Below, in pieces: positions 1 through 31,920 of a stretch of DNA of 32,187 nucleotides (position 1 is its first letter; every line of letters begins with the position of its first letter). The notes under the pieces are model-generated. The model was given only the letters and a program-made list of their open reading frames with translations, was not told the DNA's origin and ran no database searches. Source of the DNA: Chromatiales bacterium (GTDB lineage Bacteria > Pseudomonadota > Gammaproteobacteria > Chromatiales > Chromatiaceae); NCBI GenBank assembly GCA_024712425.1, contig JAKRWE010000013.1, positions 17,516 through 49,702 on the forward strand, read 5' to 3'. The position numbers and the translations under genes are program-made.

Positions 1-212
1 TCCTCCTCATCATCACTGGCCTCACCCAGGGAATCGAAGCCCTCGCGCACGATCACATGGCAGGTGGTACAGGCGCAGGACTTCTCGCAGGCGTGCTCGA
101 TCTCGATGTCGTTGGCCAGCGCCGCGTCGCAGATCGTGGTGCCCGGTTCCGCGTCGATGACCGCCCCTTCCGGACACACTTCCTCGTGGGGCAAAAAGAT
201 TATCTTGGGCAT
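1..212 (-). CDS. fdx: 2Fe-2S ferredoxin of the ISC system (partial, C-terminus beyond window edge)
   Basis: Minus-strand translation MPKIIFLPHEEVCPEGAVIDAEPGTTICDAALANDIEIEHACEKSCACTTCHVIVREGFDSLGEASDDEE; adrenodoxin-type cysteine pattern; follows hscA. Confidence 0.93.
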   Translation of the reverse strand, partial: MPKIIFLPHEEVCPEGAVIDAEPGTTICDAALANDIEIEHACEKSCACTTCHVIVREGFDSLGEASDDEE

Positions 213-254
213 GGTTTGTATCCCCTTCCGGTCCGCGCATACGCGGCACCGCGG

Positions 255-2129
255 TTACTCGAATTCATCCACCTTGTGGCCGGCCATGGCCTTGCGGATA
301 TTGCTGTTCATACGTCTTTCGACATAGAACTCGCAGGTCTTCTCCAGGGCGCCGATGCTGCGCTTGATCGCCTCGGCGTCCGTGGCGCTCTCCGCCACCC
401 GACGCAGTTCATCCAGGGCGGCCTCGACGCGTTCGCGCTCGTTACCATCGAGCAGTTCATCCCCGTCCGCCGCCAGGGCGGATTGCAGGGCCTCGACCAC
501 ACGCGCCGCTTCGACCTTCTGCTCGGCCAGGCGCCGCGCTTCCAGATCCTCCCCGGCGTGCTCGATCGAGGACTTGAGCATGTCCGCGATTTCCTCGTCG
601 GTCAGGCCGTAGGACGGTTTGACCTCGATATCGGCCTTCACGCCCTGGCTGAGCTCCTCGGCCTCGACATGCAGCAGACCGTCGGCGTCCACCGAGAAGG
701 TCACGCGTATGCGCGCGGCACCGGCCACCATGGGCGGAATGCCGCGCAACTCGAAGCGCGCCAGGGTGCGGCAGTCGGAGACCAGCTCCCGCTCGCCCTG
801 CAGCACATGGATAGCCATCGCGGTCTGGCCGTCCTTGAGGGTGGTGAACTCCTGCGCCCGCGCCACCGGGATGGTGGTGTTGCGCGGGATAATCTTCTCC
901 ACCAGGCCGCCCATGGTTTCGATGCCCAGCGACAGCGGAATCACGTCCAGCAGCAGCATCTCGTCCTCGGGCTTGTTGCCCGCCAGCACATCCGCCTGCA
1001 GGGCCGCGCCGATGGCCACCACCCGGTCCGGGTCGATATCCACCAGCGGTTCGGTGCCGAAGAACTCGCCGACCTTCTCGCGCACCCGCAGGGCGCGGGT
1101 CGAACCGCCGACCATGACCACGTCCTTGACCTCCTCCGGGGTGACGCCGGCATCGCGCAGGGCGCGCCGGCAGGCGCTGATGGTCTTGCGGATCAGCGGG
1201 TCGACCAGGGTGTTGAAGGTCTCCCGGTCGAGCTGACCCTCCCACTTTCCGCCATCGGGCAGGTCGACGGCGACCGGCACGGAGGCCCGCCCGGCGAGCG
1301 CCTCCTTGGCGGCGCGGGCCTTGTCCATCAGGGCACGCAGCAGGCCCGGTGCGGCATCGCCGCCGATACCCGCCTGCTGCATGATCCACCCGGCCACCGC
1401 GCGGTCGAAATCATCGCCACCCAACGCCGAATCGCCGCCAGTTGCCATGACCTCGAACACACCCCGGTTGAGTCGCAGCACCGAGATGTCGAAGGTGCCG
1501 CCCCCGAGATCGTAAATGGCATGCACGCCGTCCGCCTCGCGGTCCAGGCCGTAGGCCACGGCCGCGGCGGTCGGCTCGTTGAGCAGACGGAACACCTTCA
1601 GACCGGCCAGTTTTGCCGCATCCTTGGTCGCCTGGCGCTGCGCGTCGTCGAAATAGGCCGGCACCGTGATAACCACCCCGGTCAGCTCGCCGCCCAGGGT
1701 CTTCTCCGCACGCTGCGCCAGCACCCGGAGGATCTCGGCCGACACCTCGACTGCACTCACCGGGCCCGCCACCGTCTGGATGCGCGGCACCGCACTGCCG
1801 GAGTCCACGAACCGGTAGGGCAGCGCGTCGCCAAGGGTCTTGAGATCGTCCACTCCGCGGCCGATGAGACGCTTCACCGAGGCAATGGTGTTGTGCGGAT
1901 CCTCCACCCCTGCATCGCGCGCGGCCGCGCCCACGATGACACCGTCCGGGGTATAGCGGACCACCGATGGCAACAGGTGCTCGCCATCCTCGTCCGGCAG
2001 CGTCTCGGCCACGCCGCTGCGCACCGTTGCCACCAGGGAATTGGTCGTGCCCAGGTCGATACCTGCTGCCAGGCGATGCTGATGCGGGGCATCCGACTGG
2101 CCGGGTTCGGCTATCTGCAAAAACGCCAT
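255..2129 (-). CDS. hscA: Fe-S cluster assembly Hsp70 chaperone HscA
   Basis: 624 aa; [33 protein letters not shown]; between hscB and fdx. Confidence 0.97.
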
Positions 2130-2677
2130 CAGATCAACTCTTCCAGTTCGGCCTCGACTGCCTCGGCCTCGTTGTACAACTTGTTGAGAAACTGCATCCG
2201 GTCCACCGACTCGCGCGCGGCCTCGAGCTGCTCGGGCGTGGCGGTCTCCAGCTGCACCGCCAGGCGTGCCACCTCGGCCTCGATCATGCCCCGGATGTCC
2301 CGCATGAGCTCATCGAGGCGCTGCGCCGGATCGTCCTGCCCACGCACATCGGCCAGGGCCTCGCGCAGCTCCATCTGCTGCATGAGAAACGCCGGATCCC
2401 GAGTGATCGCGGTCTCCTGGTCGGTATCGATGCCCTGCAGCTGCAGCATGTAGAGCGCGCGCTTGAGCGGGTCGCGCAGGGTCTGGTAGGCCTCGTTGGC
2501 CAAGGTCGCCTGCTGCAGCGCCAGGCGTTGATCCTGGTCCGACGCACTGGCGTAGCGGTCGGGGTGGACCACCCGCTGCAACTCACGATAGCGATCCGAC
2601 AGCGCACCTGTATCCAGGACATAGGCTACGGGCAGTCCGAACAGGTCGAAGTAGTTGTTTTTGGTCAGATCGATCAT
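2129..2677 (-). CDS. hscB: Fe-S cluster assembly J-domain co-chaperone HscB
   Basis: [46 protein letters not shown] with HPD motif; overlaps hscA start. Confidence 0.95.
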
Positions 2678-6901: not shown

Positions 6902-7672
6902 TCAGGATTCTTCTTGGCTGGAGCGCTGGCGCATGGATTTTCCGCCCTGCGCCGAGCTCAGTATCCCACGCAGTATATTCACTTCTCGCTCGTCCGGCGC
7001 GGCGCGGTGAAACAGGCGCCGCAGACGGTGCATGATCCGGCCCTCCCTGCCCGGCTGCAGAAAGCCGAAATCGTGCAGCGCCTGTTCGAGGTGCCCGAAG
7101 AAGCCCTCCATCTGCGCCACCGAGGCAGGCACCGCCATGTCGCCGCGACTTGGCGCACCAGCTTCCTGCAACGACTGCATGCGCAGCTCGTAACCGAGCA
7201 CCTGCACCGCCATCGCGATGTTGAGCGAAGAATAATCCGGATTGGCCGGGATGTGCACCAGGTGCGTGCAACGGTCCAGCTCCTGCGCACTGAGGCCCGA
7301 GCTCTCACGTCCGAACACCAGGGCCACCGGACCCTGTGCGGCCCGGCCCAGCGCCAGTTCCATGGCCTCGCGCGGTCCCAGCGCCGTCCAGGATTCCGAA
7401 CGCTTGCGCGCACTCACCCCGATCACCACCGGACAGTCACCCACCGCTTCCTCCAGTGACGATACCACCCGTGCCTGGTGCAGCACATCCCGCGCCCCCG
7501 AGGCCCGTGCATCCGCCTCCGGCGAAGGGAAATGACGCGGGCTGACCAGCACCAGCTGTTGCAGGCACATGTTCTTCATCGCCCGCGCCACCGCACCGAT
7601 ATTGCCGGGGTGGGAGGTCTCGATCAGAACCACGCGGATCGCATCCCGCATCCTGTTATGGGACGATTTCAT
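6902..7672 (-). CDS. trmJ: tRNA (cytidine/uridine-2'-O-)-methyltransferase TrmJ
   Basis: IRVVLIETSHPGNIGAVARAMKNM...LVFGRESSGLSAQEL; SPOUT family; alternative start at 7651. Confidence 0.92.
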   Translation of the reverse strand: MKSSHNRMRDAIRVVLIETSHPGNIGAVARAMKNMCLQQLVLVSPRHFPSPEADARASGARDVLHQARVVSSLEEAVGDCPVVIGVSARKRSESWTALGPREAMELALGRAAQGPVALVFGRESSGLSAQELDRCTHLVHIPANPDYSSLNIAMAVQVLGYELRMQSLQEAGAPSRGDMAVPASVAQMEGFFGHLEQALHDFGFLQPGREGRIMHRLRRLFHRAAPDEREVNILRGILSSAQGGKSMRQRSSQEES

Positions 7673-8697
7673 CCGGCCTGTCCTGTCAGTTGGCGAAGAA
7701 CCCCCGCGCCCCTGTCCGTGAGGCGGTACTGCTGCAGACGACTGCGTGGCCGGTCAGGGATGGTCATCTCGATCAGGCCTTCGTCGAGCGCCGGCTTCAG
7801 GTAGCGTTCACGGAAGGATTTACGGTCGGACAGTCCGAGAGCCGCCTGCAGGGCCTCACGTGTCATCTCGTGCTCCATCACCGCCAGCAGCGCTCTGACT
7901 TGGGGGCTTACTTGGGGGTTCACTTGGGGGGCGCCGAGCACCAGAGCCTCCGCGATCATCTGCAGCATAAAAGTGATGAAGGGTGCCGCATCGGTTTCCT
8001 CGGTACTCCGGGCGATCGCCTCGTAATACCCCGCCTGATGCTCGAAGACCAGGCTCTCCACCGGGATATCGGCGAACAGCGGCTTCCATTGCGCCAGAAT
8101 GAGGGTCTGCCACAGGCGGCCGATACGGCCATTGCCATCGGCAAAGGGATGAATGAATTCGAACTCGTAATGAAATACCGAGCTGGCGATCAAGGGATGA
8201 TCCCCGGTGGACCCCAGCCAGTCCAACAAACCACTCATCAATGCCGGCACCCGGCCGGCAGGCGGCGCCATGTGCAGCACCGTCTGACCGGCCATGACCC
8301 CGACGCCGCTGCGGCGGTAAACGCCCGCCTCTTCGATGAGGCCGCTCATCAGGATCCTGTGGGCCTCCAGCAAATCGCTTTCGGCCTCGGGCCGCCATCC
8401 GGACAGCCGATCATAGGCCGCCAGGGCGTTTCTTACTTCCTGGATATCGCGCGCCGGCGCCATCACGCGTCGCCCCTCGAGCACCGCGGTGATCTGTGCC
8501 TCGCTCAGGGTGTTTCCCTCGATTGCAAGCGAGCCGAGAACCGTCCGGATGCGGTTGGCCCGCCGCAGACGCAGCGCCCTTCCCGCTGTGGCCAGACGCC
8601 CAACCGCCTCGCTGATCTCTGCAACCCGGTTCAGGATCTCCGGGGTGATCGTGTATGGCGGCGTATCGTTCGAGCGTCGCATCGGCCCTGAGCACAC
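7669..8697 (-). CDS. Fic/DOC-family protein with N-terminal inhibitory motif and C-terminal winged-helix-like region
   Basis: FIHPFADGNGRIGRLWQ (Fic motif); SLAIEGN matches the (S/T)xxxE(G/N) inhibitory motif; ATGA overlap with trmJ ORF. Confidence 0.93.
   Translation of the reverse strand: MCSGPMRRSNDTPPYTITPEILNRVAEISEAVGRLATAGRALRLRRANRIRTVLGSLAIEGNTLSEAQITAVLEGRRVMAPARDIQEVRNALAAYDRLSGWRPEAESDLLEAHRILMSGLIEEAGVYRRSGVGVMAGQTVLHMAPPAGRVPALMSGLLDWLGSTGDHPLIASSVFHYEFEFIHPFADGNGRIGRLWQTLILAQWKPLFADIPVESLVFEHQAGYYEAIARSTEETDAAPFITFMLQMIAEALVLGAPQVNPQVSPQVRALLAVMEHEMTREALQAALGLSDRKSFRERYLKPALDEGLIEMTIPDRPRSRLQQYRLTDRGAGVLRQLTGQAG
7898..7933. repeat. 12-nt tandem repeat x3 inside fic encoding PQV-N/S-PQV
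   Basis: acttgggggctt / acttgggggttc / acttggggggcg; protein APQVNPQVSPQV. Confidence 0.8.
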
Positions 8698-22659: not shown

Positions 22660-26235
<3,576 letters not shown>

Positions 26236-26520: not shown

Positions 26521-26946
26521 ATGGTACCCCGAATTGTTGTCGATACGAGCGTGTTCACTGCTGCCTTGATTGGGACAGCCGGGCCAAACCGCGAAATACT
26601 GCGACGCTGCCTCAAAGGGCAATACCAATCACTGCTGGGAAATGCCCTTTTCTCCGAGTACGAGGCTGTTTCAGCCAGACCGCATATTTTGGATAAATGC
26701 CCCGTTTCCGCTGATGACATCCAAATCTTGCTGGAGGCCTTTTGCTCTGTTTCTGAATGGATATCGATCTACTACTTGTGGCGACCAAACCTGGCTGACG
26801 AGGCAGACAACCACCTTCTCGAGCTCGCCGCAGCTGGCAACGCGCAGTGGATCGTGACAAACAATGTTCGGGACTTCAGGCAGGCCGAACTGAATTTTCC
26901 CGGGATTCAGATTCTGACCCCGGAACAGATTCTGGAGGTACGTTGA
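26521..26946 (+). CDS. PIN-domain RNase toxin (VapC-like / PIN family)
   Basis: 141 aa MVPRIVVDTSVFTAALIG...DEADNHLLELAAAGNAQWIVTNNVRDF; acidic PIN residues. Confidence 0.87.
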   Translation: MVPRIVVDTSVFTAALIGTAGPNREILRRCLKGQYQSLLGNALFSEYEAVSARPHILDKCPVSADDIQILLEAFCSVSEWISIYYLWRPNLADEADNHLLELAAAGNAQWIVTNNVRDFRQAELNFPGIQILTPEQILEVR

Positions 26947-27189: not shown

Positions 27190-27215
27190 CCCGGGCCGCG
27201 CGCCCGGGATCTTTT
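27190..27215. terminator. Intrinsic terminator, between convergent TA and radical SAM genes
   Basis: CCCGGGC-CGCGC-GCCCGGG followed by ATCTTTTC on plus strand. Confidence 0.65.
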
Positions 27216-28942
27216 CAGCCGGCCGCCCCGATCAGGCGCCGGGTCATGTGCAGGCGCACGCCCGCATCCTCGGTGAGCATGTGGTACAGGTGGTGCGGCC
27301 CGGTGGCCTTTTCCAGCAGCGACGGCAGGTCGGACCGCAGCTCGGCATACAGATCCGGCAAACGGCGGTCGAAACGGTACAGGGCCTGGCTGAGAGGGTC
27401 CTTGCGCTGGCGCGCCAGTATCCTGTCCACCCCGTCGGCATACACATCCCCCAGGCACATGTGGACCGCGTTGAACAGGGTCACCCAGCCGTTGAACCAG
27501 AACATCAGGTCGATATCGAAGGCCTCACCGGGCGGCGGCCCCTGGGTGAGCACCTGCTGCAGCAGCTCCCGCTCCTTGACCGTCTCGCCCTCCTCCATCA
27601 ACTCGGCGCGCCCGTAACCATCGATGGTGGAGCTGGTCATCAGGACAGGCGCGTCGGGATAGCGGGCGAGTACGAAACTGGCGTCCTTGAGGATCTTCCC
27701 CCGCTCGCCGGTGGCCGGGTTGGTCTTGAGCCGCGCGGAAGGTCCTGTCGAGAGTATCCGCACCTGGTAACCGCGATCCCCCAGCTCGTTGACCAGGTGC
27801 GCGAACACCCCCTTTTGCAACACATCCATCGAGAAGTTCAGACCGGTCTGCTTGTGCAGCAGCGCCAGCTGGATCTGTTTCGCATGGCGCGGGGCCGTCT
27901 CGACGATGTTGGCGATCTTGGCCACCGGAATGCGTTCTTTCAGCCGCCCCTGTTTGTCGACGATCACCTCCTGATGGAACTCGTCGAAACTGATCTGCAG
28001 CAACACCCGCGCCCTGGGCCAGTGCGAGGGGCGGCCATCGATGGCCGCCGCCATGCGGCCGATGACCTCTTCCGTGGTCTGCGGATCGTCGGCGAAGTCG
28101 CCGTTGAGCAGGATCGCAAAGGTGGTCACGTGGCGCATGGCGCGAATGCCGTCGTAGAAGGCGTCCATGTGCCGTGTCAGGTCGCCGCCGGTGAACAGCA
28201 CGTTGTCGGTCAGGCCGTCGACGATGCGGTAGATCTTGTCGGGATCGGGGTCGGTGGGCTTGAGGGGGCGCCAGATGAACATGCAATGGCGGCAGGCCTG
28301 CGGGCAGCCCATGGCCGGGATGATGCCCAGCTTGGCGAAGCCCTTGTTTTTGCCCACCCCCGGATCGGGCAAGGCATCCACCAGCGCCAGGCGTTCCCGG
28401 TCGGCCTCGCCCAGCATGTCGCCATAACGGTCCTTCTCCTGCTTGGCCAGTCCGGCGTAGGCCACCTTGTAGCTCTGCTCGAACAGGCCGAAGGATCGCC
28501 ACACATCCAGCACATGCCGCACTGCCTTCGACAGTTCACCTTCGGCGGCGTCCACCAGGCGCAGTGCCTGCGCCTGCTGCACCGGCCCACCAGGCGGGTG
28601 CGCCTGCCAGTGCCGGAGATAGCCCTCGACAAAGGTATCGGCAGTATCCGTCTCGATCAACAGTCGCATCAGGAACAGGCGCTGCGGGTTCCTGAATGTC
28701 GCCAGCATGCCTTCGCGATAGGCCGCCGGGACGTTGTGCCGCAGCCAGTGCCAGGCGTACAGGTAGGTGAGCAGGAAGGCGAGATCGCCCGCATCGGGCC
28801 GCCCGCCCAGCAGCGCGGCCATGCCACCGCCGGTCAGGCGGCTGACCTCGGCCTTGAAGCGCTGGCGCATGGCCGGCAGGTAGATGCCCAGCAGACGTTG
28901 CTGCTCGACAGCATCAGCGACGGATTCGGGTTGGGCAGACAT
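27215..28942 (-). CDS. Radical SAM protein of unassigned function
   Basis: 575 aa from MSAQPESVADAVEQQ; IIPAMGCPQACRHCMFIWRPLKP (CX3CX2C), VLFTGGDLTRHMDAFYDGIRAM. Confidence 0.85.
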   Translation of the reverse strand: MSAQPESVADAVEQQRLLGIYLPAMRQRFKAEVSRLTGGGMAALLGGRPDAGDLAFLLTYLYAWHWLRHNVPAAYREGMLATFRNPQRLFLMRLLIETDTADTFVEGYLRHWQAHPPGGPVQQAQALRLVDAAEGELSKAVRHVLDVWRSFGLFEQSYKVAYAGLAKQEKDRYGDMLGEADRERLALVDALPDPGVGKNKGFAKLGIIPAMGCPQACRHCMFIWRPLKPTDPDPDKIYRIVDGLTDNVLFTGGDLTRHMDAFYDGIRAMRHVTTFAILLNGDFADDPQTTEEVIGRMAAAIDGRPSHWPRARVLLQISFDEFHQEVIVDKQGRLKERIPVAKIANIVETAPRHAKQIQLALLHKQTGLNFSMDVLQKGVFAHLVNELGDRGYQVRILSTGPSARLKTNPATGERGKILKDASFVLARYPDAPVLMTSSTIDGYGRAELMEEGETVKERELLQQVLTQGPPPGEAFDIDLMFWFNGWVTLFNAVHMCLGDVYADGVDRILARQRKDPLSQALYRFDRRLPDLYAELRSDLPSLLEKATGPHHLYHMLTEDAGVRLHMTRRLIGAAG

Positions 28943-28958
28943 GATGGGGCGCGGGCCT

Positions 28959-30323
28959 CTACTCGTAGAACATGTCCTGGAACAGGCCCTCGGCCCAGGC
29001 CAGGCTGGCCTGGCCGCCGGTGACATCCCAGTTGTCGACCGAGTGGATACGGTCGAAGGCGAAGTCCTTGCTGGCCTCGTCGTAGCGATAGTAGGTGATG
29101 TGGCTCATCGCGCGCAGCGGATCGATGTCCATGGTTGAGAAACACATGGTCTGCGGGCTGCGCCAGACCACCTCCCGGCCCAGGGCATGCCCGGCGATCA
29201 CCTCGGCCACGTACTGGGCCTCGGAGTTCGCGGTATGCCCTCCTTTCGAGAACGGCTGGGAGCGGGAATCACCGGTGATATAGACGTGCTCGTCCCCGAC
29301 CAGGTTATAGCGGAAGGGATCCGTATCCGCCGTCTTCTGCGGACTGCTCGGGTTCACGATACCGGCCTCCTCCAGCAGCCGGGAGGCCCGGATCGGCGGA
29401 TAGATGATGGCATCGTCGAAACTGTATTCGTCGAATTCCGTCTCGACGCTCCGGCCCGCCACGTCGACATTGGAGATCATCGAGCTCGGCAGGTAGTCGA
29501 TGATGTCGGCGTACAGGTCATGGAAGGCCCTGGAGAAGGCGTCCTTCATGATCGTGATGTCGCTGTTCATGTCCAGCAGCAGGATCTTGGCCCGCACATT
29601 GTGCTTCTTGAACATCGCCGCCATGACGCAGGCCCGCTCGTACGGTGCCGCGCTGCAGCGGTAATCGCCGTTCGGCACGTTCAGCAGAAAGGTGCCGCGC
29701 TTGAACTCGTGGATCTTGCGCTTGATGGTGAGCAGTTCCGAGCTGCTGTAGAAGCCGCCGGGATAACGGTGGTACAGCGTCTGCTGCTCGACCGGGTCCT
29801 CGACGCCGATGCGCGCGTAGTCGTACTCGATACCGGGCGCCAGCACCAGGTAGTCGTAGTCCAGTATCCCGGCGTCGCTGTAGACCTTGCGCGCCTCGCG
29901 GTCGAAGCCCAGCACCGTGGCCTGCAGAAAACGGTAGTCGTGATGCCGTGCCGCCTCGAAGAAGCTGTGGCTGAGAAATTCCAGGTCGACCTGATCAGCC
30001 AGCCAGGCATTGCTCAGGGGGAAGGACAGAAAGGCCGGCTGGCGATCGATGAGCACAACATCGAAGGCCGGATTCTGCAGTTTGAGGTATTTGGCCATGC
30101 TCAGGCCGGACCAGCCGCCACCGACGATCACGACGCGCGGGCCCTTGGGCGCCGGGAGATCCGCCTTACGCAGAAGCCTGGCCAGGGACGGCGGGGTCTG
30201 TGCTGTTGATTCGTCGGGGGCCGGTTCGTGTTGCGCCACGGCGAGGGCCGGCACACCGGCCACGAGCGTTGAGCCTGCGGCCTGCAGAAAACGGCGACGG
30301 CTGAGCTTGGATTTGTCTGTCAC
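28959..30323 (-). CDS. TAT-exported FAD-dependent oxidoreductase, flavocytochrome c sulfide dehydrogenase (FccB/SoxF)-like
   Basis: SRRRFLQAAGSTLVAGVPALAVAQ; VVIVGGGWSGLSMAKYLKL; YRCSAAPYERA; C-terminal NWDVTGGQASLAWAEGLFQDMF. Confidence 0.85.
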   Translation of the reverse strand: MTDKSKLSRRRFLQAAGSTLVAGVPALAVAQHEPAPDESTAQTPPSLARLLRKADLPAPKGPRVVIVGGGWSGLSMAKYLKLQNPAFDVVLIDRQPAFLSFPLSNAWLADQVDLEFLSHSFFEAARHHDYRFLQATVLGFDREARKVYSDAGILDYDYLVLAPGIEYDYARIGVEDPVEQQTLYHRYPGGFYSSSELLTIKRKIHEFKRGTFLLNVPNGDYRCSAAPYERACVMAAMFKKHNVRAKILLLDMNSDITIMKDAFSRAFHDLYADIIDYLPSSMISNVDVAGRSVETEFDEYSFDDAIIYPPIRASRLLEEAGIVNPSSPQKTADTDPFRYNLVGDEHVYITGDSRSQPFSKGGHTANSEAQYVAEVIAGHALGREVVWRSPQTMCFSTMDIDPLRAMSHITYYRYDEASKDFAFDRIHSVDNWDVTGGQASLAWAEGLFQDMFYE

Positions 30324-30332
30324 GCGGTCATC

Positions 30333-31034
30333 TCACTTGAAATCGGGGTTGCGCCAGCCCGGGTTGGGGGCCAGGTCCTTCTTGGGCACCGGTATGCGGG
30401 AGACATAGTTGAGCGCGAACTTGAGCTCCTCCTCGCTCAGGCGGTTGACCACCGCCAGCATGCCCAGGTTGACCTTGCGCAAGCCGCGCTTTGCGGCAAT
30501 GGCCTGGCGGTAGGTGTAGCTGTAATGCTGGCCCTGGAGCCGTGGATAGGACTTTTCGTTGTTGCCCTCGCCGGAGGCCCCGTGGCAACCCGAACAGTTG
30601 TCCAGGTAGAGGGTCTTGCCCTTTGCATACTCCGGTGTCGCCTCCGGCCAGGGGCCACGATTGTGTGCGGGATCCATCGGCAGATCGGTGATGTAGGACA
30701 CCACGTCGACCAGGTTCTGGTAGCCACCCACGGTGCGCTCCTGCACGAACGGCCGCATGCTGGGGTTGCGTCGTTTGCCGGTGCGGATGTCCAGCAACTG
30801 CTTCAGCAGCACGTTGACATGTTGCCCGGCCAGCTGTGGATAAGTGCCGTCATGATTCCCCCAAGCCTCGGGCAGGTGGCAGCGGGCGCAGGTCGCATAC
30901 ACCTGCCGGCCGTTGTCGCGGTCCGGCTGGAACTCCAGCACCATCCTGACAGGGTCTGCTGCGTACAGCCGTGGACACAGCACAAGGGCAAAGAGGCCGG
31001 CAAGGAATCTGAACCTGCGTGGATGGCGAAACAT
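30333..31034 (-). CDS. Exported di-haem c-type cytochrome (cytochrome c4 / FccA-like)
   Basis: Signal peptide MFRHPRRFRFLAGLFALVLCPRLYAA; two CXXCH motifs (CARCH, CSGCH). Confidence 0.9.
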   Translation of the reverse strand: MFRHPRRFRFLAGLFALVLCPRLYAADPVRMVLEFQPDRDNGRQVYATCARCHLPEAWGNHDGTYPQLAGQHVNVLLKQLLDIRTGKRRNPSMRPFVQERTVGGYQNLVDVVSYITDLPMDPAHNRGPWPEATPEYAKGKTLYLDNCSGCHGASGEGNNEKSYPRLQGQHYSYTYRQAIAAKRGLRKVNLGMLAVVNRLSEEELKFALNYVSRIPVPKKDLAPNPGWRNPDFK

Positions 31035-31103: not shown

Positions 31104-31685
31104 TTATGCGTTCTCGGCCAGCAACCTGCGCACCGGACCGAAGCTGCGCCGGTGGATCTCGGTCACCCCCAGTTCATGCAGGGCCTGTATATGTGCCCGG
31201 GTCGGATAACCCTTGTGACCGGCAAGTCCATAACCGGGATAGCGCGCATCGAGCTCGATCATCTCCCGGTCACGTGCCACCTTGGCAATAATGGAGGCCG
31301 CCGCGATGGCCGGTTCGCTGCCGTCCCCGCCGACGATCGCCTGCGCGCTGCACGGCAGGCCCGCTGGAATCCTGTTGCCATCAATCAGGGCGTGATGCGG
31401 TGCAATAGACAAGCTCTCTACGGCACGCCGCATCGCCAGCAAACTGGCCTGCAGGATATTGATCCGGTCGATCTCCTCGACCTCGGCCCGCCCCAGCGAC
31501 CAGGCCAGGGCCTTGTCCTGTATTTCGGGAAACAGGCGTTCGCGTTTCTTTTCGCTCAGCTTCTTGGAATCGGCCAAGCCGTCGATCGGCCGTACCGGAT
31601 CGAGTATGACCGCCGCCGCGACCACGGCCCCTGCCAGGGGACCGCACCCAACCTCGTCCACCCCGCAGACAAGAGACTCAGGCAC
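31104..31685 (-). CDS. rnhB: Ribonuclease HII (probable GTG start; ORF is open to 31826)
   Basis: [25 protein letters not shown]...[16 protein letters not shown]...[17 protein letters not shown]. Confidence 0.93.
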
Positions 31686-31920
31686 TTGGCCCTCGCATTG
31701 CCAGGAGATCCTGACACCGGGGAATAGAGGTCGTCCGGCTACCGTTTTTGCATGGAAACATGACAGATTGGCACAACAGAAAATGAGACAGGGATTATCC
31801 CCAAAACCCGGGAAATCGCCAAACACTGCTTGATCATGGTGGTAGGCCCAAACCGTCCCGATGACCTACAGGTTCACAGGGAGGCGCAACCGGCACGCAC
31901 AAAAACCGCAACGATAAGGA

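Follow-up and report, generated by a model that had tools for sequence, protein, structure and literature searches.

Probably two independent units rather than one pathway: a divergent flavocytochrome c gene pair adjoining a radical SAM gene in a Chromatiales bacterium

Our findings make it likely that two independent units lie side by side in the DNA studied here, which comes from a sulfur-oxidising bacterium: a divergent periplasmic flavocytochrome c, encoded by a cytochrome gene and a flavoprotein gene, and a cytoplasmic radical SAM enzyme that would not be needed for the flavocytochrome. This reading draws on what can be taken from the sequences themselves: which domains the products contain, their redox cysteines, their TAT and haem motifs, and the fact that each unit is distributed independently of the other. 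Because the pair sits before a separately inherited radical SAM gene in this genus only, the three genes are probably not one pathway, and we judge the radical SAM enzyme in the window (the whole stretch of 32,187 nucleotides that was analysed) to be independent of the flavocytochrome. The genes in question are:

30333-31034, minus strand: gene 1 of the conserved pair, for an exported c4/FccA-like di-haem cytochrome c (two CXXCH motifs, Cytochrom_C, c4 match)
28959-30323, minus strand: gene 2 of the conserved pair, for a flavoprotein of FCSD-like (FccB/SoxF-like) type exported via TAT (PF21706, 5n1t, 1fcd)
27215-28942, minus strand: radical SAM enzyme of an unnamed family (PF04055, CX3CX2C)
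31104-31826, minus strand: rnhB, the upstream flank, which marks the insertion site (homologues in loci L050, L052 and L054)
22660-26235, minus strand: dnaE, the downstream flank (order kept in L050-L054)

Elsewhere in the window, a PIN-domain (PIN_3) gene, possibly a toxin, lies on the plus strand between dnaE and the radical SAM gene (26521-26946) and a Fic/DOC family gene (PF02661) on the minus strand (7669-8697). The long open frame at 3-2453 (plus strand) has a match to Pfam PF10712 (NAD-GH) and is probably an antisense artefact over a 624-aa ORF on the minus strand (255-2129), which we presume may be dnaK.

A preliminary description had seen three minus-strand genes with gaps of about 9 and 16 bp, and reading the coordinates directly gives 9 bp (30324-30332) between cytochrome and flavoprotein genes and 16 bp (28943-28958) between flavoprotein and radical SAM genes. 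Its further claim of one operon, held to be almost certain, is plausible for the window and for L051, where the second gap is 6 bp, but this gap measures 113 bp in L050 and 193 bp in L052, where it holds TCGGGTTTTAACCCGA then CAAGGTTTTTG, a terminator-like hairpin (1 found versus 0.2 expected in shuffles). Since folding the entire L052 gap region shows no unusual stability (z -0.4), we take the hairpin as supporting rather than decisive. Co-transcription in the window would, on our preferred reading of two independent units, presumably carry no functional meaning.

By sequence, the cytochrome and flavoprotein genes are a conserved two-gene unit related to FccAB. Orthologues of the flavoprotein (P0002; at least 56% identity) occur in 12 genomes from four genera of the order (210 order genomes searched), and in every one of these with a long enough contig and cleanly called genes the cytochrome gene precedes the flavoprotein gene. 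Cytochrome orthologues (51-61%) were found directly upstream of it in G013, G460, G478, G602, G603 and G610; an exported di-haem cytochrome c next to the flavoprotein gene, as befits an FccA, is an arrangement kept in four genera. In the window, the cytochrome product has a signal peptide and two CXXCH motifs (CARCH, CSGCH), matches Pfam Cytochrom_C (E 4e-17) and finds its nearest solved structure in cytochrome c4 (8uf3, E 4.8e-20). The flavoprotein matches the FCSD_central domain PF21706 (84.5 bits, cut-off 27, E 7.5e-24) and carries a twin-arginine signal (SRRRFLQ; TIGR01409 17.8 bits, cut-off 16.7); its closest solved relatives are the FCSD flavoprotein subunits 5n1t (E 3e-39) and 1fcd (E 1.5e-34). 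What had been proposed for the two products - an exported di-haem cytochrome c, a TAT-exported FCSD-like flavoprotein and, taken together, a resemblance to FccAB - is thus borne out.

In the Allochromatium vinosum FCSD, Cys161 and Cys337 are redox-active and Cys42 binds FAD covalently (PMC3504083). Alignment with FCSDs places equivalents of Cys161 and Cys337 (YRC, MCFS) in the flavoprotein and all of its orthologues. The residue equivalent to Cys42 (8-alpha-S-cysteinyl FAD) is Phe in the window and Phe or Leu in 4/4 genomes that hold all three genes, and it is Cys in the relatives from G013 and G155; FAD in the window flavoprotein is probably bound non-covalently. As periplasmic substrate of the pair we infer sulfide or sulfane sulfur: using its Cys-Cys redox centre together with the FAD, the flavoprotein would oxidise sulfide or another reduced sulfur compound (sulfane/persulfide), and the electrons would pass singly to the di-haem cytochrome as acceptor and from there to the respiratory chain.

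Compatible with two independent units, and a sizeable though lesser possibility, is that the pair represents a related periplasmic dehydrogenase with another substrate, for example SoxY-bound sulfane sulfur, polysulfide or an organic thiol. The flavoprotein falls into a separate clade of 10 rows (support 100/100, midpoint root) apart from 1fcd and 5n1t, its active-site loop reads RCSAAPYE instead of the RCPPGPYE of FCSD, Cys42 is missing and PF09242, the FCSD flavin-binding C-terminal domain, gives no match up to E 0.1, whereas an FCSD from L210 matches it at 3.5e-27. Moreover, the clade includes sox-linked FCSD-like proteins from Paracoccus alcaliphilus (WP_090616537) and Allomeiothermus (WP_013159549), both with 33-34% identity to the window protein, and its members adjoin soxYZ (L210; P. 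alcaliphilus) or soxC (Allomeiothermus), the flavoprotein homologue preceding soxY in P. alcaliphilus and G134 and soxC in Allomeiothermus. Speaking for an FCSD-type role instead, the flavoprotein retains its two redox cysteines and its di-haem partner, there are no sox genes adjacent to the pair in the window, and the flavoprotein is the sole FCSD-type protein of its own genome. The dsrA gene, which that genome also holds, and the sox neighbours of related flavoproteins place the pair in a sulfur setting. In another class of the phylum (G155; L208:7637-11474), we observed two tandem P0002-type flavoproteins with a protein of 240-300 aa and without Pfam family encoded between them.

Whether the radical SAM gene belongs to the pair was addressed by searching 55 relatives, 399 genomes from the phylum and 210 from the order for its product, and by fetching 79 named loci from the GTDB collection. 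All three genes together were found in four genomes of one genus only (G000, G003, G004 and G006, represented by the window, L052, L051 and L050, respectively), and it is solely in these loci that homologues of P0002 and P0003 adjoin the radical SAM gene. Among 37 FCSD loci in 36 radical-SAM-positive genomes, such adjacency was again confined to these four, all from the genus of the window, and in almost all of about 100 radical SAM loci the gene comes without the pair. Four of the 12 genomes with the pair have no match to the radical SAM protein (G013, G460, G603, G610), G610 being a single-contig genome, and in G478 pair and radical SAM gene lie on separate contigs, the pair at a good distance from the ends of its own.

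Within the genus, the order of radical SAM gene and dnaE is constant in L050-L054 with the pair present or absent, so the neighbour that the radical SAM gene keeps there is dnaE: the congeners L053 (G001) and L054 (G002) have the radical SAM gene upstream of dnaE and no pair. Upstream of these genes lie homologues of rnhB, in L050 and L052 before the pair and in L054 before the radical SAM gene, which stands there by itself. We envisage either that the radical SAM gene was in the genus before the pair arrived beside it or that it stayed in place in those members that lost the pair; the weakly resolved radical SAM tree does not discriminate between gain and loss of the pair. The trio had been put forward as an undescribed system, with conservation across genomes in a neighbourhood comparison set beforehand as the check. 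With the trio restricted to close relatives of one genus, and with pair and radical SAM gene each conserved in the absence of the other, this proposal is not supported.

A competing view, which we regard as unlikely, sees the trio as one functional operon in which the flavocytochrome relies on the radical SAM enzyme for a cofactor or is modified by it, the partners being encoded apart elsewhere. The short gaps of the window (16 bp) and L051 (6 bp), which look co-transcribed, would agree with it, as would a concentration of both gene families in sulfur oxidisers. A locus of a different lineage, L062 (1662-5167), has a radical SAM homologue and, 117 bp further on, genes for a monohaem FccA and for an FccB that belongs to a different FCSD subfamily, an independent radical SAM - fccA - fccB order for which about 0.04 cases were expected by chance among the loci examined (assuming 3200 genes per genome) and which we regard as suggestive only. 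The radical SAM gene is also found in 8/12 genomes with a P0002-type flavoprotein versus 28/198 others (Fisher p 1e-4, kinship uncorrected), an excess that becomes p 0.05 when counted by genus. It is because of the L062 adjacency and this co-occurrence excess that we keep a small chance of a real functional link. Weighing against one operon, apart from the four genomes above with the pair alone, are those with the radical SAM gene and no FCSD match (G002, G005, G450, G482, G483, G520, G582, G614; some of these genomes are incomplete drafts, while G002 and G005 each consist of one contig), the different destinations of flavoprotein and cytochrome (exported via TAT or signal peptide) and a radical SAM protein without export signal, and the lack of a conserved substrate-like peptide beside its gene. 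The earlier remark that a radical SAM enzyme is not known from any standard FCSD locus agrees with our literature search, in which none of the papers covered combined both terms.

About as unlikely is a further option, namely that the radical SAM family is tied to sulfur-compound oxidation, for instance through a small molecule or through partner modification for the flavocytochrome, and that the two independent adjacencies, in the window's genus and in L062, reflect such a link.

The gene occurs for the most part in Gammaproteobacteria that oxidise sulfur (Sedimenticola, Thiolapillus, tubeworm endosymbionts and their kin) and in Magnetococcales. Around the gene in some 65 further gammaproteobacterial loci, neighbours vary freely with none conserved and, except for L062, no FCSD nearby, and c-type cytochromes are not in excess (3/205 near genes versus 4/285 far genes). 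In Magnetococcia, the radical SAM gene usually abuts, and often overlaps, a gene immediately upstream for a TIGR04283-like family 2 glycosyltransferase, whose long form beside the radical SAM gene is found in Magnetococcia loci only (L021-L029, L033, L034, L036, L042, L044-L049 and L124-L127). This adjacency suggests a carbohydrate or small-molecule role of the radical SAM enzyme there. Several of these loci have a secreted thioredoxin-fold gene divergently upstream. An arsenosugar link via the glycosyltransferase was considered and rejected as the TIGR04283-like family occurs in most relatives regardless of the radical SAM gene; a literature search for such a link found nothing.

As for the radical SAM protein itself, the description of a cytoplasmic-looking CX3CX2C enzyme proved correct: PF04055 scores 30.2 bits (cut-off 29.5), the motif reads C-PQA-C-RH-C, no signal peptide was seen and no named family matched. 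Across 39 aligned sequences the only invariant cysteines are C213, C217 and C220, next to many invariant polar residues, for instance in the SFDEFHQE, LLHKQTxLNFS and FDxDLM regions. In the AlphaFold2 model (pLDDT 92), a helical domain occupies roughly residues 1-190 at the N-terminus; the radical SAM core follows, and then a SPASM-like C-terminal region in which no cysteine is conserved. Modelled alone (pLDDT 86), the N-terminal domain found no fold match in the PDB (best E 2.5), and a single-sequence search for PDB relatives of the protein found none. EpeE requires a second [4Fe-4S] cluster and a catalytic Cys (PMC8326336), which have no counterpart in the radical SAM protein because only its three SAM-cluster cysteines are invariant. 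So although EpeE (8ai4) is by far the nearest fold (E 7e-10, TM 0.72 over EpeE) and a profile search gave a weak match to YydG and nothing else, a peptide-modifying (RiPP) enzyme like the epimerase EpeE/YydG is highly improbable to our minds, given these cysteines, a TIGR04078 (EpeE/YydG family) score of 13.9 bits, far under the cut-off of 300, and the surroundings of about 100 radical SAM loci, where a search for conserved small ORFs brought up no credible peptide.

With two independent units as the favoured explanation, the candidate new pathway is removed and two separate leads take the place of the trio. One is a divergent FCSD/SoxF-like clade without the covalent-FAD cysteine, whose member in the window has no other FCSD-type protein beside it in its genome; the other is a radical SAM family that is still uncharacterised and whose main holders are Magnetococcia and Gammaproteobacteria that oxidise sulfur, tubeworm symbionts among them. 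Were a link to the flavocytochrome true after all, it would to our knowledge be the first radical SAM step in sulfide oxidation.

Among known systems, EpeE/YydG shares with the radical SAM protein the CX3CX2C core and a C-terminal region of similar fold, yet the latter lacks the second-cluster and catalytic cysteines and has the extra N-terminal helical domain of about 190 residues that is without PDB fold match. The fccAB genes associated with TcDH in Thioalkalivibrio likewise form a pair beside another gene system, but their cytochrome is monohaem, and thiocyanate dehydrogenase takes the place of a radical SAM enzyme as partner (PMC5744179). SoxEF and sox-linked FCSD-like flavoproteins share one well-supported clade with the window protein, albeit at 33-34% identity and from inside sox clusters, whereas the window has no adjacent sox gene. 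FccAB from A. vinosum (1fcd) differs from the window clade in having Cys42, a PPGPYE rather than SAAPYE loop, a PF09242 domain and a separate place in the tree; what both have in common is a di-haem cytochrome c beside a TAT-exported FAD flavoprotein with the FCSD central domain and the redox pair Cys161 and Cys337.
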